This document shows, in pieces, positions 5,114 to 30,429 of a stretch of 32,855 nucleotides of DNA (its first letter is position 1; each line of letters starts with the position of its first letter). Below the pieces are notes generated by a model. That model made no database searches, had not been told where the DNA came from, and was given only the letters and a program-made list of their open reading frames with translations. The position numbers and the translations under genes are program-made. The DNA is from a virus: IMG/VR virus record IMGVR_UViG_3300029945_000037, positions 1 through 32,855 of that record, one strand, 5' to 3'.

Positions 5114-5120
5114 GGCGCAC

Positions 5121-5978
5121 ATGGGCATAGCCAACGGGTTGACAATACCGAACAACATTGCCAACGGCAACGCGCTCGACGCGCCCACAGCTATGGCCAA
5201 CTGGAACGCGCTGCTCGTTGCACTGAACCGCGCATTGCTTGATGCTGGAAACGGCAACGGGATGAGCGCTGCGGGATCGCAAATACACAATCTCGGCGCC
5301 GGGTCCGTTTCGAGCGATGCGGTCAATCTAGGGCAACTGACCGGGTATTTGCCCCTGACGGGAGGCACGCTGACCGGCCCTCTCGCGGCCACAGCGGGGC
5401 TGACAGCGGTCACGCAGGCTGTCAACGACAACACAACCGCCGTCGCGACAGACGCTTTTGTGCAGGCACAGTTGGCGGCCTCTCTCGCCGCATATCTCCC
5501 CCTCCTAGGCGGAACGCTGACCGGCCCGCTGGCAACGAAGGCCAGCACAGCCGCGACAGCAGGCTTAGGAATACCGCCGGGCGTCGCGCCCGCCACCCCG
5601 ACCAATGGCGACATCTGGATGACAGCCGCGGGGTTGTTCGCGCGTGTGGCGGGGACCACTTTGCAGTTCCTCGGGGTTCCCTCCACTCGCGCGTGGCAGA
5701 ACCTGACGGCGAGCCGGGCTTCGGGCACGCAGTACACCAACACCACCAACTACGATATCGAAGTCCTTCTGGTGTTTCCAGACACGGCCGGCGCTAGTGC
5801 CTACATCACGGTGGTTGTGGGCGGGGTCACGATCATAAACTCTTTGCTCTACGACCAGGGCTCAAGTTCGGCGACTTCGGTCCCCTCTTTCACTGTGCCG
5901 CCGGGGGCCACGTACACGGTGTCGTGGACCAGCACAGCGTGGTCGGGGGCTGCGATGCAATGGAACGAACTGCGATGA
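5121..5978 (+). CDS. Tail fibre protein with phage-fibre repeats
   Basis: A 285-aa probable tail fibre. I chose ATG 5121 (TGAGG at 5111-5115) over an in-frame ATG at 5070 inside the nozzle gene. The N-terminal helical part (ANGLTIPNNIANGNALDAPT) is the likely virion attachment end. Two copies of the short fibre repeat YLPLxGGTLTGPLA lie at residues 76-90 and 125-139, a hallmark of phage tail-fibre repeat proteins. From about residue 185 the protein becomes a compact beta domain (YDIEVLLVFPDT...AYITVVVGGVTI...WTSTAWSGAAMQW), probably the distal, receptor-facing tip. It ends in an ATGA overlap with the next gene. Confidence 0.8.
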   Translation: MGIANGLTIPNNIANGNALDAPTAMANWNALLVALNRALLDAGNGNGMSAAGSQIHNLGAGSVSSDAVNLGQLTGYLPLTGGTLTGPLAATAGLTAVTQAVNDNTTAVATDAFVQAQLAASLAAYLPLLGGTLTGPLATKASTAATAGLGIPPGVAPATPTNGDIWMTAAGLFARVAGTTLQFLGVPSTRAWQNLTASRASGTQYTNTTNYDIEVLLVFPDTAGASAYITVVVGGVTIINSLLYDQGSSSATSVPSFTVPPGATYTVSWTSTAWSGAAMQWNELR

Positions 5979-6181
5979 CGAACTTTGAAGCCGAAGCCTT
6001 GCGAGCCGAAGTCAAAGCCTTGGGCGCTAAGGTCGACAAAATCGAGCAAAGCATTGTCGATCTTGTCGACGCTTGGCGTTTAGCCGGGGGGCTGCTAAAA
6101 GCTGTTAAAGCTATCGCAGCCGTTGCTACGGCCTTGGCCGCTATCGCGACGCTGCTCCACTTCGGACCTAAAGGCCGCTGA
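5975..6181 (+). CDS. Small coiled-coil plus membrane-segment protein, holin-like candidate
   Basis: A 68-aa protein starting at the ATGA overlap (5975-5978). Residues 1-30 form a charged helix with coiled-coil spacing (LRAEVKALGAKVDKIEQSI). Residues of about 42-63 are an Ala/Ile/Leu-rich hydrophobic stretch (AVKAIAAVATALAAIATLL) long enough for one membrane span, followed by a basic tail (GPKGR). This helix-then-anchor layout resembles XhlA-type lysis accessory proteins and class III holins. No endolysin or spanin is recognisable in the window, so a lysis role is only a candidate. It may instead be a fibre-linked assembly factor. Confidence 0.6.
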   Translation: MTNFEAEALRAEVKALGAKVDKIEQSIVDLVDAWRLAGGLLKAVKAIAAVATALAAIATLLHFGPKGR

Positions 6182-6182
6182 T

Positions 6183-7904
6183 ATGCGCAAACCCCTGGTT
6201 TACCTGGCCCTGTACCTTATGCCGTTTTCGGCGATGGCGCAGACGGCTACGCCGATCTCGGGGCTGCCCGCCGCGACGACTCCCCTCACCGGCACCGAAG
6301 TCGTCCCGGTCGTCCAGGGTGGTGCGACAAAGAAAGCCACGGTCGCGAGCATTCAGCAGTCAGGTACGCAGACAGCCAACACTGTCTTGGCTGCGCCAAA
6401 CGGAAGCGCCGGGGCTCCGACATTTCGCGCGCTTGCGCCCGCCGATCACGCGGCGGGCGCCGCAATTGCTGCTGGCAATGTTGTGTCGTGGAATAGCGAT
6501 GTTGGGCTTTCGCGCACGGCTGCGGGCAATCTGGCGGTCGGGAACGGAACGGCGGGGGATATTTCCGGGGCGCTTGATATGGCGCAACTCTGTATTCAGG
6601 CAAACGTCAATTTAACGCAAATTAGCAGCGGCAACGCGCAGCTGGGTTCTGGCTGCACAGCGGGGCAAAACGCCAATTTGTTTCTCAACAGTGTCGGCGT
6701 CAACACAATTCAATGGAATAACGCTTACCCGCTATCTATGACCACCGCGAACAGTACCGCGATGTATTGGTCCGTGCCGGCGACGGCGGCGCCGACAAAT
6801 CCTTATTACGACAATTTAGCAATTGGCGAGCATACGCTGAACGCGACAACCCATAACGTTCCGGCGCATTGCACCAGCGTTGCGTTTCCTTTTGCAAATT
6901 TTTGCGGTGATGAAGTGGCATTCGGGGATTATACGCTCTCGACTGATACCCAAGGACATGACAACACCGCGCTTGGTGATCACGCCCTGGCTAACCTCAC
7001 AACCGGAGTTCAAAACACGGTGGTTGGATCGAGCGCTCTCCCGAACTATAACGGCTCAAACTCGACAGCCGTCGGCGTGAGCGCGTGCCAAAACGTCACA
7101 AATTCCGTCAATCCGCTGACTTGCATCGGCCTTAGCGCCCTCCAGAATGCCGGAACGTCATCGGGCAACGTCATCGCCATCGGCACTCAGACGATGATCG
7201 ACACGACTACGGCAACCAGCGACGTGGCCGTTGGCGATGGCGCCGGCTACAACTCTACATCGACAACCAGCAGCGTTTTGCTTGGGACGAATGCGTGCTC
7301 GAATGGGACGACTGTAACCAATTCGATTTGCATCGGCGTGGGTGGGCCTGCAACCGGCACATATTCCAACATGCTTTGGATTGGTGGTGGAACAAATCCG
7401 CCTATTCAAGGAAATTTGTCAACCAACGCTTTGACCTTTCCGGGCAGCGTTACCATCGGCGGTGGTTTGCTTGCTGGAGGCGTGCTTGGCTGGAACAGCG
7501 ACACTGGATTTAGTCGAACCAATTCCGCAACGGCGGCCTTAGGAAACGGCACTCAAAGTGATGCTACTGGCACACTGGTATTGGCGGGCCTCAATTTCCA
7601 GTACAACGCTAACTTTTCGCAAATCACAACGGGCCAAGTGCAGCTAGGGACAGGGAGCACTATTGGTCATGGGGGCTCGCTGTACTTGACCAATCTAACG
7701 GCTTATGGCTTTGTTCGTGAAGGGCAGACCACTTTCGCCAATCTCTCAACCATTGATCCGACGCCTCAAGTTGGTGATCATCTTGTCATAACCGATGCCA
7801 GCGCCTGCACAGCCAACACCGCTGTCACCGCTGGCGGCGGTTCCGCACATTCTTGCGCCGTGGTCTACAACGGCGCCAATTGGGTTGCTCTTGTTACACA
7901 TTAA
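6183..7904 (+). CDS. Fibre protein with signal peptide and YadA-head-like repeats
   Basis: A 573-aa protein starting at ATG 6183, 1 base after the preceding stop codon. Residues 1-19 (MRKPLVYLALYLMPFSAMA) look like a Sec signal peptide with an AMA|Q cleavage site, which is unusual for a virion protein. Residues 24-55 (ISGLPAATTPLTGTEVVPVV) are the common N-terminal part of phage tail fibres. Residues 211-400 hold about ten short units of the form x(V/A)xG(D/S)xAL (NTALGDHALA, NTVVGSSALP, DVAVGDGAGY), the pattern of the YadA/trimeric autotransporter head beta-roll. An ~80-residue module occurs twice (about 99-180 and 432-510; VVSWNSDVGLSR versus VLGWNSDTGFSR). The gene looks more AT-rich than its neighbours, which may indicate separate acquisition. 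Confidence 0.75.
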   Translation: MRKPLVYLALYLMPFSAMAQTATPISGLPAATTPLTGTEVVPVVQGGATKKATVASIQQSGTQTANTVLAAPNGSAGAPTFRALAPADHAAGAAIAAGNVVSWNSDVGLSRTAAGNLAVGNGTAGDISGALDMAQLCIQANVNLTQISSGNAQLGSGCTAGQNANLFLNSVGVNTIQWNNAYPLSMTTANSTAMYWSVPATAAPTNPYYDNLAIGEHTLNATTHNVPAHCTSVAFPFANFCGDEVAFGDYTLSTDTQGHDNTALGDHALANLTTGVQNTVVGSSALPNYNGSNSTAVGVSACQNVTNSVNPLTCIGLSALQNAGTSSGNVIAIGTQTMIDTTTATSDVAVGDGAGYNSTSTTSSVLLGTNACSNGTTVTNSICIGVGGPATGTYSNMLWIGGGTNPPIQGNLSTNALTFPGSVTIGGGLLAGGVLGWNSDTGFSRTNSATAALGNGTQSDATGTLVLAGLNFQYNANFSQITTGQVQLGTGSTIGHGGSLYLTNLTAYGFVREGQTTFANLSTIDPTPQVGDHLVITDASACTANTAVTAGGGSAHSCAVVYNGANWVALVTH

Positions 7905-9011: not shown

Positions 9012-11860
9012 GCCTTTTCGGCACAACTACCCTTTCCCGGCGGCACCCGCTTGTCTTCGGAGGCTTGGCCGCAGTCGGCCCCACGACCGGCTCTCCGCTG
9101 GCAATCGAAATCCTGACCGGTGCTGTCACCAGCGACACCGGGTTCGCACCAAACGTCAACGGCTTTGTGGCGCGGGTCAAATTCCAGAACATGATCCGCC
9201 GCAGTCCGCACGGCTCAAAATACGGCGGCTACCCGGACCCAGTGACCAACTGCACCAGCTTGGCCATTACGGTGCAAGACGCCGGGTTCAGCGCGGCAGG
9301 CGTGCCGGTTACCTGGCAGCGTACCGTGCATGGGCGGTTGCCGCTCAAGAACCCATTCCCGAACCTCTGGTCTGCAATCGGTTCGACGGTGCCCGCGCTG
9401 TCGTGGTGTTCGAATGCGGGTATCGCCTATTACACGATTGCAGGCGGCACGAAGGGCGCAACGGCTCCTACCGGCACGACTGTCGGGACCGCGTATTCGG
9501 ACGGCTCGGTTTCGTGGATTTGCATCGGCGCAGGCGGCGTCGGCAGCACGGCCCTCGCCACAGGTGCGGGCGACAACGGCTATATCGAGGCGTCTGACGG
9601 GTCGGGTAATATGTGGGTCTACATGATCCTGGATGACCCGATCTATGCGACATCGACTGTGGTGTCGGCGTCGATCGGTGCAGGTGCCTATTCGGCGGCA
9701 GGCGTGAGCAGTCTTGCCGCGACAATTCCGACCTTGACCAACAACTCGACGCTGGCTGTGCCGCTGCCGCTGGTCAACCACCTGACGCCCGATCACTTGC
9801 TGGACCAAGGCGCGGCGCGGTTCGAAACGGTGGCGCACCACTATTGGGGACCCAAGAACGGCCAGTTGGCGAACGCATCGGGCGGCGCTGCGCCAGCGGG
9901 CAAGCAGATGATCGCGGGTGTCACGCTCAACCGCTACCTGTCGGCAACGCCGGGCACTGTGGTTTCGACCAGCGTCAACACCACGTCGCTCTCCACGCTG
10001 GTCACAACCAGTTCACCGGGCGGCTGCGCGGCCGAAGTGTTTGCCCTGTCCAATCCCGGCGCTGGTTTGGCGTCGGCAGGCGATGCTTATATCGAGGCGG
10101 TCTATTATCCCTGGATCGGCCCGGCCTATTCGACGGCGGTCTATGGTGAAGGCGCGGCCTGGACGGCCAGCACCAACTACGCCGCGGGCAATTATATCGG
10201 CGTCGGGCAGATCGTGCGCAACGGCGCCAACCTTTACTATCTGGCCACGGCGGGAACGTCTGCATCGTCCGGCGGACCCACTGGCACGACCACCGGAATC
10301 ACGGACGGCGGCTGCACCTGGAACTATTACGGCAACCTGCTGACCAACCGGATCAGTCAGAACGTCCCGGCGCGATCGCATTTCTACAACGACCCTTCAG
10401 CGCTCTACAACACGGGCTATGCGTTCTGCGATCCATCGGGGACAGCAACGGGCACAACCGGGGTTTTTTCGACGTATGCGGCTGCGGCTGCGGCCAAGGG
10501 CACATTGTCGAACTGCTACTCGTCGATCTATGCGGCGGCGGCGGCGATCCAGACATTCAACAACACCACCAATGGCAGCAACACGCTGCACAACGATACC
10601 GGGAACGGGCAAATCTATTTGAAGGCCGGCACATGGGCGGGTGTCGGAACTGCGATGAATACCCTGACGCGCGGTGCGACGTGGCTATATGTGCAGGCCG
10701 ATCCGGCAGCGACAGCAGGCACGGTTATCTATTCCGAAGGTACGGTCAAAACCCCCGCCTTGCGCATGTGGTTCGGCAACGGCATCAGTTTCACCGGATC
10801 GACCAACAACATCGGGCTTGACGCGACTATCGGATCATCGGTGGCGCAGGTCGGGACCGAAACGGTTATCAGCAGCATGAACCTGACGCTGCTGAGCGCG
10901 GGGGTTAACGATTTTGCCAACCGCACCGGCACGACCTGGTATCTCAACAACACCTTCACCACGCGCGCGAACTGCAATTCGCAGCTTGCGACCGCTTCGA
11001 CATGCGCGGGGTTCCACGGCAATAACTGCACGTCCCTCACGGTCGGAACGATCTTTGCGCCTTTCGCGATGGGCAACCGCATTGCGTGCGGCGCGATCCT
11101 GATCGATCCGCGCCAAAACACTGGAGCGCCACTGCTCTACTCGCAGATCATCGCGAGCAACAAAATCCTTGGCCGTACAGATACAGCCATTGCTGTCCTG
11201 TGCAATTTCGCGATCACGGCGATTGCGTTGGTTGGGCAGTCGATCACCGGCAATCTGATCGTCACGCGCCAGACCACCGAAAAGTGCGGGCAGATCAGCG
11301 CTGACTCTTCGACCAACGCGACGAGCAACACCGTCGTCGCCTACAACAGTTGCGTCGGGGATCGGCTCAACTATGCCTACGATGACGTCAACGGCCCGAC
11401 GACCGCCATCCACACCAATTGGTGCCATGCTCATAATATCACGACCCAAGAAAACATTGTGCGCGATACGATGTACCACATCTCTGTTCCGAACGGGCTG
11501 TGCTGTCAGAACTATTTCGCGGTCTACAAGGTCGGGTTTCAGGGCAACGTCAACCTGTTGGGATCGACCACGCAGAACCCTGCGGTCTTTAGTTTCTACG
11601 ACCTGATCGGCCCTGTCGATCCGGCGGTGTTTCCGGCGATCGGCAAATACAATCAGTATGCCAGCGGCACGGCCATGTCGGCGGAGTTCCACACTGACAA
11701 CAGCGCCACCAGTGCAGCCCCGTCGATGGCGGCAGATGGCGATTACCGACCCGTTGCGGGAACGGCCAAGAGCCAGGGCGCGGCGGCGTGGCTGGGGCTG
11801 CGGTATGATCTTCTGGGCGTGACGCGGGTCAACACCGCCGGGGCATTGGAAGCGGCATGA
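9008..11860 (+). CDS. Large tailspike/fibre with beta-helix and carbohydrate-binding-like modules
   Basis: A 950-aa protein with GTG start in the GTGA overlap (9008-9011). Two segments have the pattern xYxxAGTxxxxxPTGTTxGxxDGxxxW: residues 139-176 and 385-443 (the second includes NYAAGNYIGVGQIVRNG). This resembles the small carbohydrate-binding-like modules seen in many phage tail proteins. From about residue 545 to 840 short beta strands alternate with Asn/Thr/Gly turns, as in a right-handed parallel beta-helix. The C-terminus DGDYRPVAGTAKSQGA and YDLLGVTRVNTAGALE matches the usual end of beta-helix polysaccharide-degrading proteins. It is probably a receptor-binding spike, possibly a depolymerase. 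No catalytic residues can be assigned by eye. It ends in ATGA with the GNAT gene. Confidence 0.75.
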   Translation: MSLFGTTTLSRRHPLVFGGLAAVGPTTGSPLAIEILTGAVTSDTGFAPNVNGFVARVKFQNMIRRSPHGSKYGGYPDPVTNCTSLAITVQDAGFSAAGVPVTWQRTVHGRLPLKNPFPNLWSAIGSTVPALSWCSNAGIAYYTIAGGTKGATAPTGTTVGTAYSDGSVSWICIGAGGVGSTALATGAGDNGYIEASDGSGNMWVYMILDDPIYATSTVVSASIGAGAYSAAGVSSLAATIPTLTNNSTLAVPLPLVNHLTPDHLLDQGAARFETVAHHYWGPKNGQLANASGGAAPAGKQMIAGVTLNRYLSATPGTVVSTSVNTTSLSTLVTTSSPGGCAAEVFALSNPGAGLASAGDAYIEAVYYPWIGPAYSTAVYGEGAAWTASTNYAAGNYIGVGQIVRNGANLYYLATAGTSASSGGPTGTTTGITDGGCTWNYYGNLLTNRISQNVPARSHFYNDPSALYNTGYAFCDPSGTATGTTGVFSTYAAAAAAKGTLSNCYSSIYAAAAAIQTFNNTTNGSNTLHNDTGNGQIYLKAGTWAGVGTAMNTLTRGATWLYVQADPAATAGTVIYSEGTVKTPALRMWFGNGISFTGSTNNIGLDATIGSSVAQVGTETVISSMNLTLLSAGVNDFANRTGTTWYLNNTFTTRANCNSQLATASTCAGFHGNNCTSLTVGTIFAPFAMGNRIACGAILIDPRQNTGAPLLYSQIIASNKILGRTDTAIAVLCNFAITAIALVGQSITGNLIVTRQTTEKCGQISADSSTNATSNTVVAYNSCVGDRLNYAYDDVNGPTTAIHTNWCHAHNITTQENIVRDTMYHISVPNGLCCQNYFAVYKVGFQGNVNLLGSTTQNPAVFSFYDLIGPVDPAVFPAIGKYNQYASGTAMSAEFHTDNSATSAAPSMAADGDYRPVAGTAKSQGAAAWLGLRYDLLGVTRVNTAGALEAA

Positions 11861-12324
11861 CCCTGGCCCTCGCCTGGGAGCCGCTCGACCGGCTGCTCGA
11901 CGAGGGCGTCGAAGAACTCCTGTTCAATCATTGGCAGGAAGTCGCGATGGACCGCGAGCGTATTCCGCTCGACCCGGATTGGGATCGCGCCCGACAGCTT
12001 GAGCGCGACAAGGTGCTGTGGACCGCTGCGCTGCGCAGAGACGGCCGGTTGATCGGCTATAACTCGATGTGCGTCCACCCGCATATCCACTACCGCTCGA
12101 CGCTTCACGCGGTCAACGACGTGATATATGTCGACCCGGCAGAGCGCGGTGCGGCCGGGGTCAAACTGGTTCGCGGCACCGAAGCCATGCTTGCGGCGCT
12201 TGGGGTCGTCAAAGTCATCTACCACACCAAGCTGACCCCGATCGGCGGCAAGCACACCGTGGGTGACTTGCTTGCCGTCTTGGGCTACAAGCACTTCGAG
12301 AACCTTTACTGCAAACTTCTGTGA
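11857..12324 (+). CDS. GNAT-fold acetyltransferase-like protein (T7 gp13-like position)
   Basis: A 155-aa protein. The sequence DRERIPLDPDWDRARQLERD, then GRLIGYNSMCVHPHIHYRST, AVNDVIYVDPAERGAAGVKL and a C-terminal LGYKHFENLYCKLL, is the order of a GNAT N-acetyltransferase: beta strands, the acetyl-CoA-loop region (RGAAGVKLV in place of the canonical RGxGxG/A) and a final LGY/F strand. Small GNAT-fold proteins stand at this place, before the internal virion genes, in many podoviruses; T7 gp13 is assigned to this fold. The CoA-loop is degenerate, so activity is uncertain and an assembly or structural role is possible. It starts in an ATGA overlap with the spike gene. Confidence 0.8.
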   Translation: MTLALAWEPLDRLLDEGVEELLFNHWQEVAMDRERIPLDPDWDRARQLERDKVLWTAALRRDGRLIGYNSMCVHPHIHYRSTLHAVNDVIYVDPAERGAAGVKLVRGTEAMLAALGVVKVIYHTKLTPIGGKHTVGDLLAVLGYKHFENLYCKLL

Positions 12325-12331
12325 GGCAAAG

Positions 12332-13234
12332 ATGGGCGGATCGTCGGCACCAATGGCGTACACGCCGCAGAACCAGGCAGGCGCCGATTCGTCGTACACC
12401 AGCAACCTCAACTCCCTGACGCAGGGGGACCAGAACACCTACAACACGGCGCAGACTGGCTACAACCAGGCGTACCAGAACGTCCTGAACAACCCCTACT
12501 ACGCGCAGGGTCAGCAGCAGATCAACGCTTCCGGGGCGCAGCAGTACGCGCAGGGCGGGACGGACATCGCCAACGCCAACACGTTGAACAGCATGGCGCC
12601 TTCGATCGTAGCCAGCGGCTTCGACCCGACCTCTGCGCTGTACAACAACCAACTCAAGAGCGCGCAGGATGCGCAGTCGATCGCCTCGGCGCAGGCTGGC
12701 CTGGCCGGATCGCCGTTCGCAGCGGGGATGCAGGGCGACGCGACGACGAACTTCAACCTGAACTGGCAGGCGAGCCAGGCGCAAAAGCAGCAGCAGGCAA
12801 TCGCCGCGCTGTCCTCGCTGTACGGCAACTCTGCGAACCTGGCCTCGACGGGGGCCTCGCAGCAGATGCAGGGAGCCGCAGCGCCTGCGCAGGCGTACAA
12901 CGCCAACCAGTCGTCGATCATGTCGGCTCTGGCGAACCTCGTAAACGGCACGACCAGCGCAGGGTCACAGGTCAACAGTGACATCGGCCAGTATGGCAAC
13001 TACCTGCAAATCGGCCAAGGCGCCACCAACTCGCAGGACAACGCGACGCAGATCAACAACCAGCCGAGCGGCCTGCTTGGCGGGCTGACCAAGCTGTTCG
13101 GCATGGCTACGGGCACTGGCGGCCTGTCCAGCCTGTCCAGCCTGTTCGGCGGATCAAGCGGGGGCCAGTCGATTGGCAGTATGGCCGCTGCGGGCAACCC
13201 GTCGATAGACACTGCGGCGCTGGGGCTCTTCTGA
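12332..13234 (+). CDS. Putative internal virion/DNA ejection protein (gp14-like position)
   Basis: A 300-aa protein starting at ATG 12332, 7 bases after the GNAT stop, with GTGAGG just upstream. It is rich in Gln, Asn, Ala and Ser with few charges (PYYAQGQQQINASGAQQYAQ). The middle (SGFDPTSALYNNQLKSAQDA...NFNLNWQASQAQKQQQAIAA) looks helical. The C-terminus is Gly/Ser-rich with a hydrophobic character (LLGGLTKLFGMATGTG). Similar low-complexity proteins precede the larger ejection proteins in podoviruses, and T7 gp14 forms a channel in the outer membrane. The role is inferred from position and composition; no named domain was recognised. Confidence 0.62.
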   Translation: MGGSSAPMAYTPQNQAGADSSYTSNLNSLTQGDQNTYNTAQTGYNQAYQNVLNNPYYAQGQQQINASGAQQYAQGGTDIANANTLNSMAPSIVASGFDPTSALYNNQLKSAQDAQSIASAQAGLAGSPFAAGMQGDATTNFNLNWQASQAQKQQQAIAALSSLYGNSANLASTGASQQMQGAAAPAQAYNANQSSIMSALANLVNGTTSAGSQVNSDIGQYGNYLQIGQGATNSQDNATQINNQPSGLLGGLTKLFGMATGTGGLSSLSSLFGGSSGGQSIGSMAAAGNPSIDTAALGLF

Positions 13235-13235
13235 C

Positions 13236-14510
13236 ATGCGGTTCGGAAACCTCGAAGAGGCCGTAGGAGCCTACCAGCAGGGCACGCAGTGGGCGCAGCA
13301 GCAACAGCAGCAGCGCCAGCAGCAGGCCGCATTGCTCGCGCTGGGCAAGATGCTGTCTCAGCCGAACGGACAGCCGCAGGGCCAGCCGCAACCAACGCCG
13401 GCAGCGCCTCCTGCCGCCGCGCCGCAAGGACAGGCGCCGCAAGGACAGGCGCCGCAGCCCCCTATCACCCTTGCGCCGCAGACGGTGGCTGCGATGGGCG
13501 GCATGTCGCCCCAAGCATCGGCTGGGCTCGCCGCGCTTAACCGGCCGAGCGCCGCGCCACAGGGCGCTCAACCCGCGCAGCAGCCCATGCAGCAGCCCCC
13601 GGTCCCCGGCATGTCGAGCACCGCGCAGCCCGACGCCGCAGGGATGGACGACCCGATCAAAGCGGCGCAGCAGTCGATCATGGCGATCGCGCAGGGGATC
13701 AAGGCGGCCAACCCGAACATCGACCCGCGCACCTTGGCGCTTGCCGTTGACCAGCAGATCGAGACGATCAAAGGCGTGTCGCCGCTGACCAAGGCGGCGA
13801 TGACCGCGCAGATTCAGACCGTGAAGCTACAACAGGATTGGCAATACAAGCAGTCGCGGCTGGCGCAGATCGACCAGGACGTTGCGGTCAAAGTGCAGAA
13901 CGCCAAGACCGCCGAAGAGCGCGTGCAGGCTTATGCCGACGGCAATCAACTCCGTGCGCAAGTGATGCGAGAGGGGTACGCCGAGCGGTTGGAAGGCACG
14001 CGCGAAACCAACGCAACGCGCCTCACCACCGCGCAGATAGGCGCCAGCGCGCGGAAGTATGCCGCCGACAAGGGTTACGCGCGCGGCATTGACACGGCGA
14101 ACATCAGCCAGAGCGGCGCGAACGCCCGCGCAGGTGTCGGCGCAGAAGGCAAGCGCGGCGCGGCCGTTACCGGAGCGTACACCAAAGCCTACAGCGCCTT
14201 CATGGCTAACTCGCCCGGTGCCACGCCCGAGCAGGCGCAGGCCGCCGCAGAAGCAGCGGCTGACGCCGTGGCGGCAATGATGCCCGCCACCCCAGCGCGG
14301 GCGGCCAACGTGCCGTCAGGCGACCCCTTGGCCGGTCAGGGTAGGCCCGCAGGGCGCCCCGTGCTGACCGCCCGACCGGCGCCAAACCGCCCGGGGCGGC
14401 AGGCGCCACCTGCGGCCGCCGTGGCCTCGCTAAAAGCCAACCCTTCGCTCCGAAAATACTTTGACGAGAAATACGGGGCGGGGGCTGCGGCGGCGGCCCT
14501 TGGTAAGTAG
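13236..14510 (+). CDS. Putative internal virion protein, Gln/Ala/Pro-rich (gp15-like position)
   Basis: A 424-aa protein whose ATG follows the previous stop codon by 1 base. The first ~150 residues are low-complexity Gln/Pro/Ala (runs of QQQQ, PQGQAPQGQAPQP). Residues of about 150-290 are helical and charged (IMAIAQGIKAANPNIDPRTL, YKQSRLAQIDQDVAVKVQNA). The C-terminus is Ala/Pro-rich and ends FDEKYGAGAAAAALGK. The last base of its stop codon is the first base of the next GTG start. Size, composition and position between two ejection-type genes suggest an internal virion protein; there is no direct motif. Confidence 0.62.
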   Translation: MRFGNLEEAVGAYQQGTQWAQQQQQQRQQQAALLALGKMLSQPNGQPQGQPQPTPAAPPAAAPQGQAPQGQAPQPPITLAPQTVAAMGGMSPQASAGLAALNRPSAAPQGAQPAQQPMQQPPVPGMSSTAQPDAAGMDDPIKAAQQSIMAIAQGIKAANPNIDPRTLALAVDQQIETIKGVSPLTKAAMTAQIQTVKLQQDWQYKQSRLAQIDQDVAVKVQNAKTAEERVQAYADGNQLRAQVMREGYAERLEGTRETNATRLTTAQIGASARKYAADKGYARGIDTANISQSGANARAGVGAEGKRGAAVTGAYTKAYSAFMANSPGATPEQAQAAAEAAADAVAAMMPATPARAANVPSGDPLAGQGRPAGRPVLTARPAPNRPGRQAPPAAAVASLKANPSLRKYFDEKYGAGAAAAALGK

Positions 14511-17500
14511 TGCCCAATCCGTTTGATCGATTCGACGCGCCGCCAGCAAAAGCGGGGGGAAACCCGTTTGATCGATTCGACTCTCCCACGCCAGCGCCAC
14601 GAACGGGCAATCCGTTCGACCGCTTCGACGCATCTGCCCCCAAGACTTCCAAGCCCCCGCAGCAGCCTAAGCCCGCCGACCCGAGTTGGCTGTCGACCCT
14701 CGGCACCGCGGTCGAGAACTTCCCGTCGAGCGCCGTCAGCGCCGTCAAAGGGTTCTACAACCAGGTGCGGCACCCGGTCGACACGATCGGGCAATTGGCG
14801 TCGGCGCAGATGGGGCTCTACGGCCGGGCAGGGCTCCCCGGTGTCGATGACCGCAGCAAAGACCTGTCGAAACAGATGGGCCACGACATGGTCGACCCCT
14901 ACACCAGTGTGTCGAAATTCAAGAAGAAGCTGTCTACCGATCCGGTGGGGGTGGCCATGGACGCGTCGATGATCGCAGCGCCGTTCGACGCGATGGCCGG
15001 GGGTCGGGGGGCCGCAGCGATGGGCCGGTCGGTCAGCGCCGCCGCGCGGCCCATCGTGCGCGCGGGTGAAAGCCTGCGCAGCACGTTCAACCCCGCGCGC
15101 GCGTCGCCAGCCGCAGCGGACACAGCCGCTGCGTTCCGGCGCTTCCGGGGCACCCGAGGCGCCGAGGCGGATCGCACGGCGTTTCAGTTGGGCAAACTGT
15201 CCAAACGTATCGACGGGTCGCCGCCCGAGCAGCACGCGCCCTTCTACAAGTTCATCGAAACGCGCGGCAAGGCGCCCGCCAGCGCCAAGCCTGGCGTTGC
15301 GGGCCTCGACATCTCCGGGGCCGAGTACGATCGCGCCCGTGACCTTGGCCTCGACAGCAAGGACATCAAGGCCGCCAACCAGATCAGAGACGTCTACAAC
15401 CACTACCACGACGAGGCCGCCAAGGTCATCAAAGCCAACACCAACGGCCAAGTCGGGTTCGTGAAAGACTACTTCACTCACATGTGGGCCGAAGACGCTG
15501 CGACCGTCGAGCAGCGCATGACGAACTTTGCCACCAAGCAGGGCACCGGCCGCTACTTCTTCAAGCGCACAATCCCGACGATCGAGGACGGCATCGCCGC
15601 CGGCCTCACGCCCAAGTATGGCCCGATCCAGACGGTCCAGGTCTACACCGAGAACATGGGCAACCTGCTTGCGACGCACGAGGTTCAGGCGTTTTTGAAG
15701 CAGATGCACGACGAGACCCAAGGGCGCTCGGGGGCCGAGTGGTTCCGCCCCGGCCAGCAGCCCGAGGGCTGGCAACCGCTGTCGGGCATCCTGACCGAAC
15801 GCCAGCCAAAGGTCGCTCGCCGGACGGGTGGAGCAGGACGCAACGAGCAGCGGCCCGGTACGCAGGCGCGATTGCCAGCGCCAGACGCCCCGCAGCTTGG
15901 TGGACCCGGCGAGCGCCCTGCGCTCGGGCAGGAAGTCCCGGTCGTCGACGCGCAGACGCAGTTGCCCGGGCGCAACGCTGTCGCGCCCGCATGGGCGCCG
16001 AAGCCGCGCGACGGGCTGGGCGGGCCGGGTGCCGCGCCGCAACTGGAGGATGCGGCGGCCAACGCCAAGCGCGCCAAGGGTGTAGTCGAGCCTGACGCAC
16101 CGTCAACCGAGCCGGCGCCAGACCGCAGCGTGCAGAAGGAACAGCTTTACGCACCGCCGGAGGTCGCGCGGCTTTACAATAACGCAATTTCCAAACCGTT
16201 TGACCCGTCCGCCGGGCCAGCCGAAACCGTGGGACACGCGGCCTACAAGGCGGGCGTCAACGCTATGATGTGGAAGTTCGCGCTGTCGGCCTACCACGCC
16301 ACAACGATGATGCTGGAAAGCGCCGTCAGCCGTGCGGCGGGGGGCTACGAAGCCGCCTCGCGGGGGCAGATAGGCACTGCGGCCCGAAAACTGGCCACGG
16401 CGCCATTCGCGCCCGCTGTGGCGCTCGACTACGGGGTGCGCGGCGACTTGTTGCGCCGGCAGATTTTGGGGATCGCGGACCACGGCCCGTTCCGCCGCGA
16501 ACTGGCCGAGCGGTTTGCCAAGACCGGCGCGCGGCTGACAATGGACCGAGACTACCGGGGCACGCAGAGCAAACTGTTCTATGACGCCTGGAAAGACGGG
16601 TCGCTTGGCGCGGAGATGAAGCGCCAAGCCGCAGAGATGTATAAGGGCGACGCCAAGATGTCACAGCGCGCCGTGGCCGCCGCGCGCATAGTCTCAAATC
16701 TGATGACTTCGGCCAGCCGGCCGCTGTTCGAGGAAGTTATCCCCCGCATCAAACTCGGTGCGTGGTCCGACATGATGGGCGACTACCTCAAAGCCAACGA
16801 AGGTGCGCCGGAAGCGGAGATACAGGCTTACGCCAACAAGGCGTGGGACACGATCGACAACCGCTTCGGCGAAATGAACCGCGACAATATGTTTTGGAGC
16901 CGAAAGACGCAGCAGGTCTTGCAGGCCGCGCTGGCGTCGCCAACGTGGAAGATCGGGTCGTGGCGCGAGATTGGCGGCGGCGTGATGGACCTGCCCGAAA
17001 GCGTGAAGAACATCGGCACAGGCAAAGGCGTATCGCCGCGCACGGCGTACTTGCTTGCGATGGCCACGGTCGTTCCCCTCTACAATTCGATCTACCAGTA
17101 CCTGAAGATCGGCAAGCCGCCGCAAGACGGTCGGGACCTGATCGCGGGGCGGACCGGCGGGCGCGACCCCCGCACCGGTCAGCCCGAGCGTCTGCTGTTC
17201 CCGGGAAACCAGAAGGAAGTGTTCTCGGCTGCGCAGGCGCTGGGGGATGGACCTCCGGGCGTGATCCAGTACGGTTTGAACGCGGGCAACGCGGTGCCCA
17301 AGGCAATCGGCGAACAGGCACTGAACAAAGACTACGCCGGACGCCCGCTATATGGAGACACGGCCGCGCCAGGCGCCGAAGCGGAATGGCTCAAAGGAAC
17401 TGCGGCGCCCATCTCAATGGAGCAGCAGAAACTGAAAGGCTCGAACATCGGCATGGTCGAAAGCCTTTTGGGCGCCAAGTCCGCGCCAGCGTATCTTGAA

Positions 17501-17593
17501 GGGGCCTCAAATGCCAAGTACGAGCGGTGGAAGCGGCGGCAGGCCAAGATGAACGCCAAGGCCGCGGCCAAGCGGAAAGCGATCTACCAGTGA
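14510..17593 (+). CDS. Large internal virion/ejection protein with NPFDRFD repeats
   Basis: A 1027-aa protein, the largest in the window. GTG 14510 overlaps the previous TAG by one base. The N-terminus carries three copies of NPFDRFD (residues 3-9, 18-24, 34-40), a motif type (NPF/YDxFD) that recurs at the start of large phage ejection or polyvalent proteins. Helical segments follow, then a Pro/Gln/Ala-rich linker (about 430-540) and a long helical part with hydrophobic stretches (YKAGVNAMMWKFALSAYHAT; AYLLAMATVVPLYNSIYQYL). The segment RDNMFWSRKTQQVLQAALAS followed by WREIGGGVMD resembles the LPD38-type domain of large polyvalent proteins. No lytic transglycosylase motif was seen, unlike T7 gp16. 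It is probably injected with the DNA (inference from position and size). Confidence 0.7.
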   Translation: MPNPFDRFDAPPAKAGGNPFDRFDSPTPAPRTGNPFDRFDASAPKTSKPPQQPKPADPSWLSTLGTAVENFPSSAVSAVKGFYNQVRHPVDTIGQLASAQMGLYGRAGLPGVDDRSKDLSKQMGHDMVDPYTSVSKFKKKLSTDPVGVAMDASMIAAPFDAMAGGRGAAAMGRSVSAAARPIVRAGESLRSTFNPARASPAAADTAAAFRRFRGTRGAEADRTAFQLGKLSKRIDGSPPEQHAPFYKFIETRGKAPASAKPGVAGLDISGAEYDRARDLGLDSKDIKAANQIRDVYNHYHDEAAKVIKANTNGQVGFVKDYFTHMWAEDAATVEQRMTNFATKQGTGRYFFKRTIPTIEDGIAAGLTPKYGPIQTVQVYTENMGNLLATHEVQAFLKQMHDETQGRSGAEWFRPGQQPEGWQPLSGILTERQPKVARRTGGAGRNEQRPGTQARLPAPDAPQLGGPGERPALGQEVPVVDAQTQLPGRNAVAPAWAPKPRDGLGGPGAAPQLEDAAANAKRAKGVVEPDAPSTEPAPDRSVQKEQLYAPPEVARLYNNAISKPFDPSAGPAETVGHAAYKAGVNAMMWKFALSAYHATTMMLESAVSRAAGGYEAASRGQIGTAARKLATAPFAPAVALDYGVRGDLLRRQILGIADHGPFRRELAERFAKTGARLTMDRDYRGTQSKLFYDAWKDGSLGAEMKRQAAEMYKGDAKMSQRAVAAARIVSNLMTSASRPLFEEVIPRIKLGAWSDMMGDYLKANEGAPEAEIQAYANKAWDTIDNRFGEMNRDNMFWSRKTQQVLQAALASPTWKIGSWREIGGGVMDLPESVKNIGTGKGVSPRTAYLLAMATVVPLYNSIYQYLKIGKPPQDGRDLIAGRTGGRDPRTGQPERLLFPGNQKEVFSAAQALGDGPPGVIQYGLNAGNAVPKAIGEQALNKDYAGRPLYGDTAAPGAEAEWLKGTAAPISMEQQKLKGSNIGMVESLLGAKSAPAYLEGASNAKYERWKRRQAKMNAKAAAKRKAIYQ

Positions 17594-18921
17594 AAATCCT
17601 TTTAGTCGACAACGCGGGGCTGATGACAGACTTTGCCGTGCGCTGCATGGACGCAGGCCACACGGTCAAATGGTTCGTTCGCCCGTCGCGCATGACCCTG
17701 AACATCGGCAAGGGACTGCTCACTGGCCAGAGCGCGCAGGTCAACGACTGGCGCGAGTGGGCCAAGTGGGCAGACCTTATCATGCTGCCCGACAACGTGC
17801 GCTACCTCCAAGACCTAGAGCCTTATCGCAAGATGGGCATCCCGGTCGTGGCCGCCTCGGTCGAGACGGCTGCGTGGGAGACTGACCGCCAACTCGGTCA
17901 GAACCTGATGAAGAAGCGCAAACTTCCGGTGCCCGAGTTCAAGCAGTTCTCCGATTACGATTCAGCGATCGCTTACGTGAAGCGCGAGGGCCGCGCCTTC
18001 GTGTGCAAGCCCTGCGGAGACGAAGAGGACAAGAGCCTGTCGTATGTCGGCAAGTCGCCGGCCGACCTGGTGTTCATGCTCGAACGCTGGAAGAAGCAGA
18101 GCCGCCACAAAGACGCATTCATCCTGCAAGAGCGGGTCAAGGGCGTCGAGATGGCCGTCGGCGGCTGGTTTGGCCCGGGCGGGTTCATCACCGGCTGGCA
18201 TGAGAATTGGGAAGAGAAGAAGCTGATGGCCGGCGACACCGGCCCGGCCACTGGCGAGATGGGCACGGTGATCCGCGCCGTGCGCAAGTCGAAGCTGGCC
18301 GACAAGGTCTTGGCGCCGTTCGAGGAAGACCTGCATCGCGCAGACTATGTCGGCTACGTTGACGTGAACTGCATCATCGACGAAGACGGAACGCCGTGGC
18401 CCTTGGAGTTCACCATGCGGCCCGGCTGGCCCACGTTCAACATTCAGATGGGGATGCTGGCGGAAGGAAAGGACCCGGCAGAATGGGTGCTCGATCTAGC
18501 GGAAGGGAGAGACGCGAAGCCCTTCGTGCTCGATACCTTGGCGGTGGGGGTGGTGATGGCGATGCCGGACTTCCCGTACAGCCAGAACACGCGCAAGGAC
18601 TGCATGGGCATTCCGATCTACGGGATCAAGCCGTCGATGAAGAAGCACCTGCACCCGTGCGAACTGCAACAGGGCAAAGCGCCTCACGACGTGAACGGGA
18701 AGGTGGTGGAACTGCCATGTCTGGTGACAGCCGGAGACTATCTGCTGGTGGCGAGCGGGCTCGGGCAGAACGTGCGCGAAGCGCGCGCAAAGGCGTACCG
18801 GGTGATCGAAAACCTGTCGGTGCCGAACAGCCCGTTCTGGCGCCCCGACATCGGCCAGCGGCTCAAGAAGCAGCTTCCGACGATTCAATCCCTGGGCTAC
18901 GCGACGGGCTTGCAATTCTAG
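17590..18921 (+). CDS. PurD-like ATP-grasp ligase
   Basis: A 443-aa protein with GTG start in a GTGA overlap with the ejection gene. The whole length follows phosphoribosylamine-glycine ligase (PurD, GAR synthetase): N-terminal Rossmann-like strand (MKILLVDNAGLMTDFAVRCM), ATP-grasp Lys (K140 in FVCKPCGDE) and adenine-hinge Glu (E181 in ILQERVKGVE), the PurD-specific GDTGPATGEMGT loop (215-226), metal-binding end LEFTMRPGWP (272-281), and the C-terminal subdomain (GDYLLVASGLGQNVREARAK, then FWRPDIG). The usual PurD RxGDPE signature is changed to RPGWPTF, so the substrate may differ. It could make GAR for purine synthesis or join another amine and carboxylate. It belongs to the late virion operon, not to a nucleotide-metabolism cluster. 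Confidence 0.85.
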   Translation: MKILLVDNAGLMTDFAVRCMDAGHTVKWFVRPSRMTLNIGKGLLTGQSAQVNDWREWAKWADLIMLPDNVRYLQDLEPYRKMGIPVVAASVETAAWETDRQLGQNLMKKRKLPVPEFKQFSDYDSAIAYVKREGRAFVCKPCGDEEDKSLSYVGKSPADLVFMLERWKKQSRHKDAFILQERVKGVEMAVGGWFGPGGFITGWHENWEEKKLMAGDTGPATGEMGTVIRAVRKSKLADKVLAPFEEDLHRADYVGYVDVNCIIDEDGTPWPLEFTMRPGWPTFNIQMGMLAEGKDPAEWVLDLAEGRDAKPFVLDTLAVGVVMAMPDFPYSQNTRKDCMGIPIYGIKPSMKKHLHPCELQQGKAPHDVNGKVVELPCLVTAGDYLLVASGLGQNVREARAKAYRVIENLSVPNSPFWRPDIGQRLKKQLPTIQSLGYATGLQF

Positions 18922-18992
18922 CCGGCGAAAAGCCCGAGGCGTTTGACCTGCTGCTAGGGCTGGCGCTGGCGCACGCCAAGGAAGTCCTGGAG

Positions 18993-19184
18993 ATGGGCCT
19001 CGACCCAATGGACAAGAACTTCCCGAAGCTGCTGTCCACCAAGACGGCGATCATGTCGTCAGTGCTGACTGCGACAACGCGGGTCAATGACGGCGCGCTG
19101 CGGCGGAAGAACAACGACAGGATCGGCCAGCTTCTCGAAGAGATGAACCGGCCCGACCCTGTCGCTGCGGAGTTATTCGGGTAG
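18993..19184 (+). CDS. Small helical protein, start uncertain
   Basis: The ATG at 18993 has AAGGAAG at 18978-18984 and gives 63 aa (MGLDPMDKNFPKLLSTKTAI...RVNDGALRRKNNDRIGQLLE). The same frame is open upstream and reads protein-like from about 18915 (AFDLLLGLALAHAKEVLE), directly after the ligase stop at 18921, but has no ATG, GTG or TTG there. The true N-terminus may therefore begin at a rare start codon (CTG or ATT). The pattern DPxDxNFxxLLxxKTAxxxSxL...RVxxxxLRRK resembles small proteins that accompany phage packaging genes, by memory only. Its 3' end overlaps a possible minus-strand reading frame. Confidence 0.55.
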   Translation: MGLDPMDKNFPKLLSTKTAIMSSVLTATTRVNDGALRRKNNDRIGQLLEEMNRPDPVAAELFG

Positions 19185-28618: not shown

Positions 28619-29073
28619 AGGCTTGCCACCCAAGCCCGCACGACGCGGAGAAGATCGTCTTCCCCCCAGTCACCCATTCCCGCATTCAGCGCGTGGCAGA
28701 CAACCCGCACGTTTTCCGGCACGTACCCCAGCGCCGGGACGCGGCGGTCTAGGCTTGGACTGGTGGCAGACCGGGGGCCTTTGAGCGTGAACGCCACTCC
28801 ACTAATTTCGCAACGCCCGGCATCTATCGTCGATTGCAAACGCGCTACGTCGGCGTCGGTCAGCGTAAAAGGAACCCCGCTCTTGCGAGCGCGAACGCGA
28901 GCAGCGGCCACCAAGCATTTCGCGCGCGACTTTTCGCGGCGTAGCGCGTGCTTCTTGCGCAGCGTCTCGCGGTTTTGATCGCGCCAAACCGCCTGCACCG
29001 CACGCATGTGGTCGCCATTAACGGCTTTGCGCTCAAGGTAGTATTGGCGCTTTCGTTCAGGAGTCTGGGGCAT
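28615..29073 (-). CDS. HNH-like/recombination endonuclease-type protein
   Basis: A 152-aa protein. ATG 29073 has GGAGG seven bases upstream, and it overlaps the methyltransferase stop. The first half is highly basic (TPERKRQYYLERKAVNGDHM; KKHALRREKSRAKCLVAAAR). The second half has CEISGVAFTLKG, SPSLDRRVPALGYVPENVRV and VCHALNAGMGDWGEDDLLRV, the typical G-x-C-x-x-S/TG ... SLDRxxPxxGYxxxNxRxVC pattern of small phage HNH-type endonucleases. The pair Asp-Arg in SLDRR and Asn in ENVRVVC are the conserved residues that can be seen; the central His of a canonical HNH is not obvious. Activity is therefore likely but not certain. Confidence 0.78.
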   Translation of the reverse strand: MPQTPERKRQYYLERKAVNGDHMRAVQAVWRDQNRETLRKKHALRREKSRAKCLVAAARVRARKSGVPFTLTDADVARLQSTIDAGRCEISGVAFTLKGPRSATSPSLDRRVPALGYVPENVRVVCHALNAGMGDWGEDDLLRVVRAWVASL

Positions 29074-30148
29074 CAATAGCCTCCATGCAGGCGAGAATGA
29101 AGTTGGTTGCGGTTTCGGCGTCTAAGGCGTTTCCGTAAGCCCGAAGCCTCCCTACCCGCGAGGGAGATTGCGTGTCAAGGGCGCGCAATCGTCCCACTCG
29201 GGCGGGAGCCGCATCAACCAGCGGGAATGCGCCGGGTTCAACCGGCCTCCACTTTCCATCCCGGCAGAACAGCCAGTCAACAGCGTGCCGTCCGAGCACA
29301 GGCGCGCGGGACCGTGTTCTGTCGTCCAGTGCGTCAGGTCTGCGTCCAGAGCCAGACAGGCGCATCCGTGTTTCGTGCCGTGGATCGCCTTTTGCGTCTT
29401 GCTCCGGCCCTGCGCGTCGTGCGCCTGCGGTGTCGTCCAACCCGCAAGATGCGTCGCCACCGCCGTCAGCGTGTCGAACGTCCCCCGGCTCCAACGCGCG
29501 CCCGACGATTCCCCGTCCTCGGTTCGCGCTGTTGGCCAGCCCGCGAACTTCACCGCATGTTCCAGCGACGCTGTGTGCTTGCGACCGTCTATCGTTTTCC
29601 CGGTCGCGTCCATCTTGTCGGTTGACATAGACCGGCCACCGCTCGGCGTGTTGGGCGTAGGCCACCCAGTAATTGCGGGACCGGATATGCGCGCCGCCGA
29701 AGCCCGCAGCAGGCAGAAACGCCGCCCCGAAGGCGTAGCCTTGTGCTTCCAGGTCAGCCGATACAAGATCGAGCCAGTCGCCAGCGTTCTCAACTTGCTC
29801 TCCAGCGACGACTGGAGGCTGGCACTGCTCAACGAGATGGTTGAAGGCGGGCCATAGGTGCCGCTCGTCAGCAAACCCTGCTCTTGCGCCCGCCGCGCTG
29901 AAAGGTTGGCACGGGCAGGAGCCTGTCCAGATTGGCCGATCATCGGGCCAACCGGCGCGGCGTAAGGCGTGGCTCCACACGCCGATCCCTGCGAAGAAAT
30001 GGCATTGTGTGTAGCCTTTGAGGTCGTCGGGTCGAACATCTCTTATGTCGCTTTCGTCAACGTCACCGGGCGCAATGTGGCCATTCAGGATCAAACGGCG
30101 CAGCCATTCGGCGGCGTAAGGATCATGATCGTTATAGTAGGCTGTCAC
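29057..30148 (-). CDS. DNA (cytosine-5) methyltransferase
   Basis: A 363-aa enzyme that should methylate cytosine-5 in a specific DNA site. GTG 30148 lies in the GTGA overlap with the upstream stop. Visible motifs: motif I CHFFAGIG (52-56 for FAGIG), motif IV TGSCPCQPFS with catalytic C80, motif VI GEQVEN (a phage-type variant of ENV), motif VIII RSRNYWV, and motif X YGNALDAETA (N340) at the end. The N-terminal YYNDHDPYAAEWLRRLI is typical of the phage subgroup. Residues of about 165-310 are a low-conservation Arg/Gly/Asp-rich region with repeated LANSAN/LDDTAG-type units; that stretch includes much of a second open frame on the same strand. It may protect phage DNA from host restriction. Confidence 0.87.
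   Translation of the reverse strand: MTAYYNDHDPYAAEWLRRLILNGHIAPGDVDESDIRDVRPDDLKGYTQCHFFAGIGVWSHALRRAGWPDDRPIWTGSCPCQPFSAAGARAGFADERHLWPAFNHLVEQCQPPVVAGEQVENAGDWLDLVSADLEAQGYAFGAAFLPAAGFGGAHIRSRNYWVAYAQHAERWPVYVNRQDGRDRENDRRSQAHSVAGTCGEVRGLANSANRGRGIVGRALEPGDVRHADGGGDASCGLDDTAGARRAGPEQDAKGDPRHETRMRLSGSGRRPDALDDRTRSRAPVLGRHAVDWLFCRDGKWRPVEPGAFPLVDAAPARVGRLRALDTQSPSRVGRLRAYGNALDAETATNFILACMEAIDAPDS
29152..30039 (-). CDS. Possible overprinted protein nested in the methyltransferase gene
   Basis: A 295-aa open frame wholly inside the methyltransferase gene, same strand, +1 frame. It is more than an empty shadow: it reads LTSGTYGPPSTISLSSASLQ, SSLESKLRTL, LYRLTWKHKATPSGRR, FCLLRASAARISG, repeated GWPTP / GWTTP units and a C-terminal GSSAGMESGG-like segment (GCSAGMESGGRLNPAHSRWL) before MRLPPEWDDCAP. 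From memory, proteins with this exact order of motifs are annotated in many phages and prophages. GWPTP units coincide with (R/G)LAD/N units in the methyltransferase frame. It may be a real overlapping gene or a by-product of codon constraint; no clear ribosome site was seen. Confidence 0.35.
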   Translation of the reverse strand: MFDPTTSKATHNAISSQGSACGATPYAAPVGPMIGQSGQAPARANLSARRAQEQGLLTSGTYGPPSTISLSSASLQSSLESKLRTLATGSILYRLTWKHKATPSGRRFCLLRASAARISGPAITGWPTPNTPSGGRSMSTDKMDATGKTIDGRKHTASLEHAVKFAGWPTARTEDGESSGARWSRGTFDTLTAVATHLAGWTTPQAHDAQGRSKTQKAIHGTKHGCACLALDADLTHWTTEHGPARLCSDGTLLTGCSAGMESGGRLNPAHSRWLMRLPPEWDDCAPLTRNLPRG

Positions 30149-30429
30149 GGCAGCACCGGCTCGCCGACATCGCGGCAGATCGCCTCCCACACCACAACAC
30201 CAGCGTGCGCGCCCCACCCAAGCAGCACAGCCGCATAGCGCGGGCTTTGGCCCTGCGATACAATCTCTGCCAAGTCAGCCTTGAGCGGGGCCATCAGCCT
30301 GCGTGCGCGCGTACCAGACAGGCGCAGCGCCTTTTGCGCGCTTGCAATATTCTTGCCTTCGCTGAATGCGGCCAGCAGCGCGGCAGTGGCGCGGGCGTTG
30401 GCTTCGGCGTTGCTGCCGGCGCGGGTCAT
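30145..30429 (-). CDS. Small HTH-like protein before the methyltransferase
   Basis: A 94-aa protein that starts in an ATGA overlap with the RuvC-like gene and ends in a GTGA overlap with the methyltransferase. Its first half contains a helix-turn-helix-like stretch (AALLAAFSEGKNIASAQKAL, then RLSGTRARRLMAPLKADLAE). The rest (SPRYAAVLLGWGAHAGVVVW) is more hydrophobic. Terminase-small-subunit or control-protein roles are conceivable; context suggests a regulator or partner of the DNA-modifying genes. No firm family assignment. Confidence 0.65.
   Translation of the reverse strand: MTRAGSNAEANARATAALLAAFSEGKNIASAQKALRLSGTRARRLMAPLKADLAEIVSQGQSPRYAAVLLGWGAHAGVVVWEAICRDVGEPVLP

Follow-up and report, generated by a model that had tools for sequence, protein, structure and literature searches.

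A late gene in the window (the whole 32,855-nt stretch of viral DNA analyzed here) encodes what we take, with a probability of about 60%, to be a catalytically active carboxylate-amine ligase of the ATP-grasp type that keeps the complete PurD fold, has had its substrate site rebuilt and acts on substrates other than those of PurD. This reading is drawn from sequence comparison and a predicted structure. Acting late in infection, the ligase would bind ATP and phosphorylate a non-glycine substrate at a carboxylate gripped by R277; the acyl-phosphate would then be attacked by some amine, not phosphoribosylamine, to yield an amide. A peptide or protein, of the phage or of its host, is the most likely substrate, with a small metabolite as the next choice. 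The ligase gene and its neighbors in the late cluster are:

11857..12324, plus strand, GNAT-like acetyltransferase, first gene of the ejection cluster; a common companion, also present in ligase-free phages
12263..13234, plus strand, first internal-virion-type protein, 323 aa; putative role, from its position
13236..14510, plus strand, second internal-virion-type protein of the same gene run, 424 aa; putative role, from its position
14510..17593, plus strand, last ejection-type (internal virion) protein, 1027 aa; its TGA overlaps the ligase start
17590..18921, plus strand, PurD-fold ATP-grasp ligase of a non-PurD clade, 443 aa, GTG start
18921..19184, plus strand, small conserved frame after the ligase; putative start

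Predicted fold and active-site residues

The ligase frame is open and intact, and its GTG overlaps the TGA of the 1027-aa frame (GTGA), as the sequence-only reading had it when it described a PurD-like frame coupled to the largest ejection-type gene. When compared with its closest relatives, the gene has a dN/dS of 0.11 (L005), 0.15 (L006) and 0.20 (L099); it is a real gene under purifying selection. Searches for RNA families and tRNAs found none. Both PurD domains lie in the one frame, GARS_A with 40.4 bits (Pfam cut-off 27) and GARS_C with 29.6 bits, slightly below its Pfam cut-off of 34.8. The TIGR00877 purD model matched residues 79–424 with 87 bits and missed the equivalog cut-off of 288; relatives of the ligase from cells score ∼65–122 bits.

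Modeled with AlphaFold2 and 59 family sequences (pLDDT 94.4, pTM 0.92), the ligase is predicted to adopt a PurD fold over its whole length. The top 15 Foldseek matches of the model were PurD chains (best 2yw2, E 3e-30), and VIA-align 2 gave Z 35.5 over 395 residues with 2yw2. The 13 PurD rows (Z 30.7–35.5) scored far above PurK, PurT, biotin carboxylase and PylC (Z ∼22–24), suggesting that the ligase has the entire PurD fold, beyond the ATP-grasp core. The viral structure library held no close neighbor of the model, with a best TM of 0.46 among the matches listed. The whole PurD fold speaks for a PurD identity, and the TIGR00877 score and the glycine-site residues speak against it.

QM/MM analysis of A. 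aeolicus PurD assigns K103, K143, E185, E192 and K214 as ATP ligands and D212, R287 and E292 as glycine ligands, and places E100 at Mg (PMC8880213). To map these residues on the ligase, 8 true PurD sequences were aligned with 23 members from chromosomes and 21 from phages. K143, E192, K214, E100 and R287 are kept as K140, E187, K210, E97 and R277, respectively, and two ATP ligands are changed (K103 to R100 and E185 to Q180). Only the Arg is retained among the glycine ligands: D212 is replaced by E208, an invariant E in the clade, and E292 by T282, which is T in all cell members and in about half of the phage members. Within the clade, D290 of PurD becomes W or Y, the metal-binding EFN becomes EFT with an invariant T275 in place of N, and most members carry D258 where PurD carries Tyr. 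The PS00184 signature R[LF]GDPEx[EQIM] is missing; the ligase has RPGWPTF, and phage and cell members have RxG(W/Y)P. In the alignment, the ligase also lacks the N-terminal GxGGREHA loop of PurD, which probably contacts phosphoribosylamine. The replacements at the lost PurD positions are mostly invariant within the clade. K140, the GDTGPATGEMGT loop, LEF and RPGWPTF are all present as first read. E181 had also been listed; it is not a catalytic residue of the whole family, because the cell members shown have K or R at position 181, and the invariant residues are Q180 and E187.

Across 61 aligned sequences from phages, CPR, DPANN and proteobacteria, K140, Q180, E187, E208, K210, E223, E273, T275 and R277 are invariant. 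In the 57 non-PurD rows of a wider tree, E97, R100, K140, E208, K210 and R277 are kept throughout (57/57), with either E or D at position 273. The ATP/Mg site is therefore retained (E97, R100, K140, E187, K210, E273, and D258 in most members), R277 is the retained carboxylate-facing arginine, and the substrate site is rebuilt. The features that mark an ATP-grasp enzyme are found together in the ligase, namely the predicted fold, the ATP lysines K140/K210 and the acidic Mg ligands E187/E273, these residues being invariant in the 61 sequences. A dead protein, using the PurD fold as a non-catalytic scaffold, would fit the disappearance of the PurD signature residues, but the invariance of the ATP/Mg ligands makes it the least probable of the readings weighed here. 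The divergent clade carries D in place of E273 plus a gapped loop, so that one shared reaction for all members is not required.

An ordinary viral purD, supplying glycinamide ribonucleotide for purine synthesis, would account for the full PurD fold and both GARS domains. Surveys of ocean, snow and vent viruses also count phosphoribosylamine-glycine ligase (purD) as a viral purine auxiliary gene (PMC11360552, PMC11097641, PMC12043954), and one of them found it commoner in viruses than in cells (PMC11360552). The ligase shares with PurD (TIGR00877, EC 6.3.4.13) the whole-length predicted fold, the ATP/Mg residues, the GxTGxxG loop, the substrate arginine and the C-terminal RxDIG. It differs from PurD in having E for D212, T for E292, W/Y for D290, T for the metal-binding N and R for K103, in the loss of GxGGREHA, in its separate clade and in a score far below the cut-off (87 bits vs. 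288). The glycine-site acids, RxGDPE and GxGGREHA are swapped for family-specific residues, and the scanned ORFs of the window include no purine gene, as had been reported. On score, residues and tree we reject an ordinary PurD as highly improbable: the ligase is very probably not PurD. Of the two outcomes first named as weighing against a ligase with new substrates, intact PurD substrate residues are absent, and loss of the ATP site is not seen in the aligned relatives.

Clade and distribution

In the tree, true PurD (100), chromosomal members (99) and phage members (87) form three separate groups, the tree having been built by a quick method and carrying a warning of long branches meeting at the PurD join. 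This places the ligase in a sister clade of PurD. A scan of IMG/VR with the family alignment confirmed at least 596 stretches of the non-PurD clade, and a comparable scan with true PurD motifs returned 18 contigs, both scans being pattern-limited. The clade is new, of a known enzyme kind and widespread in phages.

Chromosomal members are patchy, being found in 11/287 genomes of one CPR phylum (over 470 bits), 30/146 in a Micrarchaeota group and 11/196 in one gammaproteobacterial order. A true PurD above the cut-off is also present in 12 of the 16 checked genomes that bear a chromosomal relative, indicating that the relative is a paralogue there; this, too, counts against an ordinary purD. Residue mapping, tree, family thresholds and distribution together give good support to the proposal that a PurD-like ATP-grasp ligase acts on another amine/carboxylate pair.

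Among cultured phages no close relative of the ligase was found, and one environmental genome has one; the ejection protein and the first internal-virion protein likewise had no match among cultured phages. A ligase homologue at L026 20001-21317 (MW202796.1 42140-43456) was left without annotation in the public genome. MW202796.1 is labeled Myoviridae, but the order of its annotated genes, with a head-to-tail connector and an internal-protein-like run, resembles that of a podovirus. Another homologue lies in a Paraburkholderia prophage (L103/L107).

Haloarchaeal “extra” PurD-like proteins (Hlac_1553 and rrnAC0307) lack the RxGDPE aspartate and were judged non-GARS (PMC3261824). The same aspartate is missing in the ligase, a comparison made by description only, and any kinship between these proteins and the ligase clade is a guess.

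The ligase in the late gene cluster

The 1027-aa protein had no Pfam or PHROG match above cut-off; its position and analogy with Pseudomonas phage PfAn1 suggest an ejection-type protein. A long frame (at least 450 aa, or running off the contig) ends just upstream of the ligase in 84/91 distinct viral or prophage loci, and the xTGA overlap at the ligase start is found in 69/91. This gene order supports the view that the ligase is produced late, together with the virion proteins.

A search with the ejection protein, for which a narrower sequence set was used and the broader alignment was too diverse, returned 62 loci, and 56 were examined. The ligase lies downstream of the ejection gene in 27 of the 56 and is absent in ∼20 despite sufficient downstream sequence. 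In non-carriers such as L273, L276 and L305, a homologue of the small frame 18921-19184 lies directly 3′ of the ejection gene, and in carriers it comes after the ligase. The ligase is thus an accessory cassette set between two late genes that are themselves conserved, and it is the small frame (to 19184), not the ligase as had been supposed, that closes the operon.

Specific modification of the neighboring ejection protein, before packaging or during ejection, would fit the translational overlap and the fixed adjacency. It would also fit the Bacteroidota-like phages, where a divergent member flanks the homologous ejection gene on its other side. Many relatives, however, have the ejection gene without the ligase, and some pairs of the ligase with its HExxE partner (described below) lie elsewhere than at ejection genes, next to ParB-like genes. 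Carriers and non-carriers have ejection proteins of like C-terminal charge (KR-rich ends, p = 0.63), so the C-terminal tail found no support as a ligase target. We regard this specific modification as unlikely. In the broader suggestion, a virion protein of any kind stays a candidate target; the ligase is dispensable in related phages, and the tail charge is the same with or without it.

GNAT genes occur in 31/49 loci with enough upstream sequence. The GNAT was rejected as an obligate partner; it also occurs in Vibrio and Pseudomonas phages that carry no ligase in the regions read. The N-terminus of the 1027-aa protein (window 14510-14660) carries three tandem NPFDRFD units, and its relatives (L005, L007, L030, L044, L051, L074) carry other units in the same place (SYDPFAAP, DLFAGFPTKKAP, VPPFLRAQ, LPKWAQAQ, LLSDADVGL); these units are perhaps fast-evolving head- or portal-targeting motifs. 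The early region encodes a DNA methyltransferase (phrog_363; window 29057-30217, minus strand).

Partner gene, cellular neighbors and candidate substrates

Directly beside the ligase in some relatives (L017, L018, L020, L101, L114) lies a gene for a ∼120-aa protein with an invariant HExxE. It also adjoins the very divergent PurD-like ligase of Bacteroidota-like phages (L327, L331) and the CPR homologue L133; the window phage has no such gene. A viral scan with the HExxE protein returned 80 loci (L338–L417), and in half of these (40) a PurD-like ligase is encoded close by on the same strand; in 32 the two genes are within 60 bp of each other, either one coming first. The pairing is spread over the ligase tree and needs at least five label changes, so that it either recurs or is ancient.

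The members of the HExxE family tested had no Pfam or NCBIfam match. Its model (pLDDT 97) has no clear match to a known fold; the weak matches are led by metallopeptidases (Z 5.3 for IrrE, 4.8 for abylysin; Foldseek E at least 0.58). Minigluzincin/IrrE/SprT-type metallopeptidases are the best of these and share a helix with an HExx motif, but they carry HExxH, the zincin motif missing in the partner, and Z is at most 5.3. By its predicted structure, the partner is possibly zincin-like.

Genes near the chromosomal PurD-like members include a PGM1-like ligase and another ATP-grasp (L165), an L-amino-acid-ligase/Ddl-type double ATP-grasp (L139), GNATs (L120, L178, L235) and SAM methyltransferases (L131, L133, L157, L235). 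In a Woeseiaceae cluster (L165, L156, L162, L163, L166, L175) the PurD-like gene is accompanied by genes for an ATP-grasp and a PGM1-like ligase, and in L165 the cluster adjoins genes resembling glycogen-synthesis genes. L235 carries two tandem PurD-like copies (4902-7646), preceded by a GNAT gene and followed by a methyltransferase gene. A CPR operon in L237 joins the PurD-like gene to two saccharopine-dehydrogenase-fold genes and an Orn/DAP decarboxylase (polyamine-type). A conserved operon in cells was dropped as an idea, the neighbors differing and sharing short-range themes only. The partner genes vary, and methyltransferases and GNATs are common, so that the neighbors of cell members are weakly informative.

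The HExxE partner, taken with these neighbors (the PGM1-like ligase, second ATP-grasp, L-amino-acid-ligase-type gene, GNATs and methyltransferases), favors a peptide or protein target. A small-molecule amide, such as a polyamine, sugar or cell-wall precursor conjugated to an amino acid, would suit the small-molecule substrates of the PurD, PurK and PurT relatives, the polyamine-type operon of L237 and the glycogen-type cluster of the Woeseiaceae homologues. We consider it possible, although a peptidase-resembling partner suits a peptide better and neither the window nor the annotated genes of the 43.8-kb relative MW202796 gave recognizable genes of a matching pathway. The modification of a DNA base, which had also been suggested, was rejected: no hypermodification gene was recognized in the window scans or in the MW202796 annotation, where many genes are unannotated.

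PGM1-type and L-amino-acid ligases, PylC and YwfE share ATP-grasp amide-bond chemistry with the ligase, and some adjoin cell members; they do not belong to the family of the ligase (structural Z ∼22 for PylC, against 35 for PurD). Phage amidoligase systems of the phiEco32 type, with a COOH-NH2 ligase and GAT-II, were predicted by Iyer et al. (2009; cited in PMC10580990 and PMC4431377). As described in those citations, they resemble the ligase in being phage-borne amide ligases whose target is not known, and differ from it in ligase family; the window ORFs scanned had no Pfam match to the COOH-NH2 ligase or GAT-II families.

A two-gene phage system is a more speculative and rather doubtful extension: the PurD-fold ligase would add an amino-acid or peptide tag to a protein and the zincin-like HExxE partner would process or remove the tag, with a virion protein as target in ejection operons and the cellular CPR/DPANN versions as chromosomal relatives.

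For the family, the proposed non-PurD ligase activity suggests that (i) the non-PurD clade is a family of amide ligases, so far unstudied, whose genes have a recurring partner; and (ii) with the substrate pocket rebuilt, many viral “purD” genes probably do something other than purine synthesis. If the published viral purD hits fall in the non-PurD clade, the conclusion that they are purine auxiliary genes would need revising.
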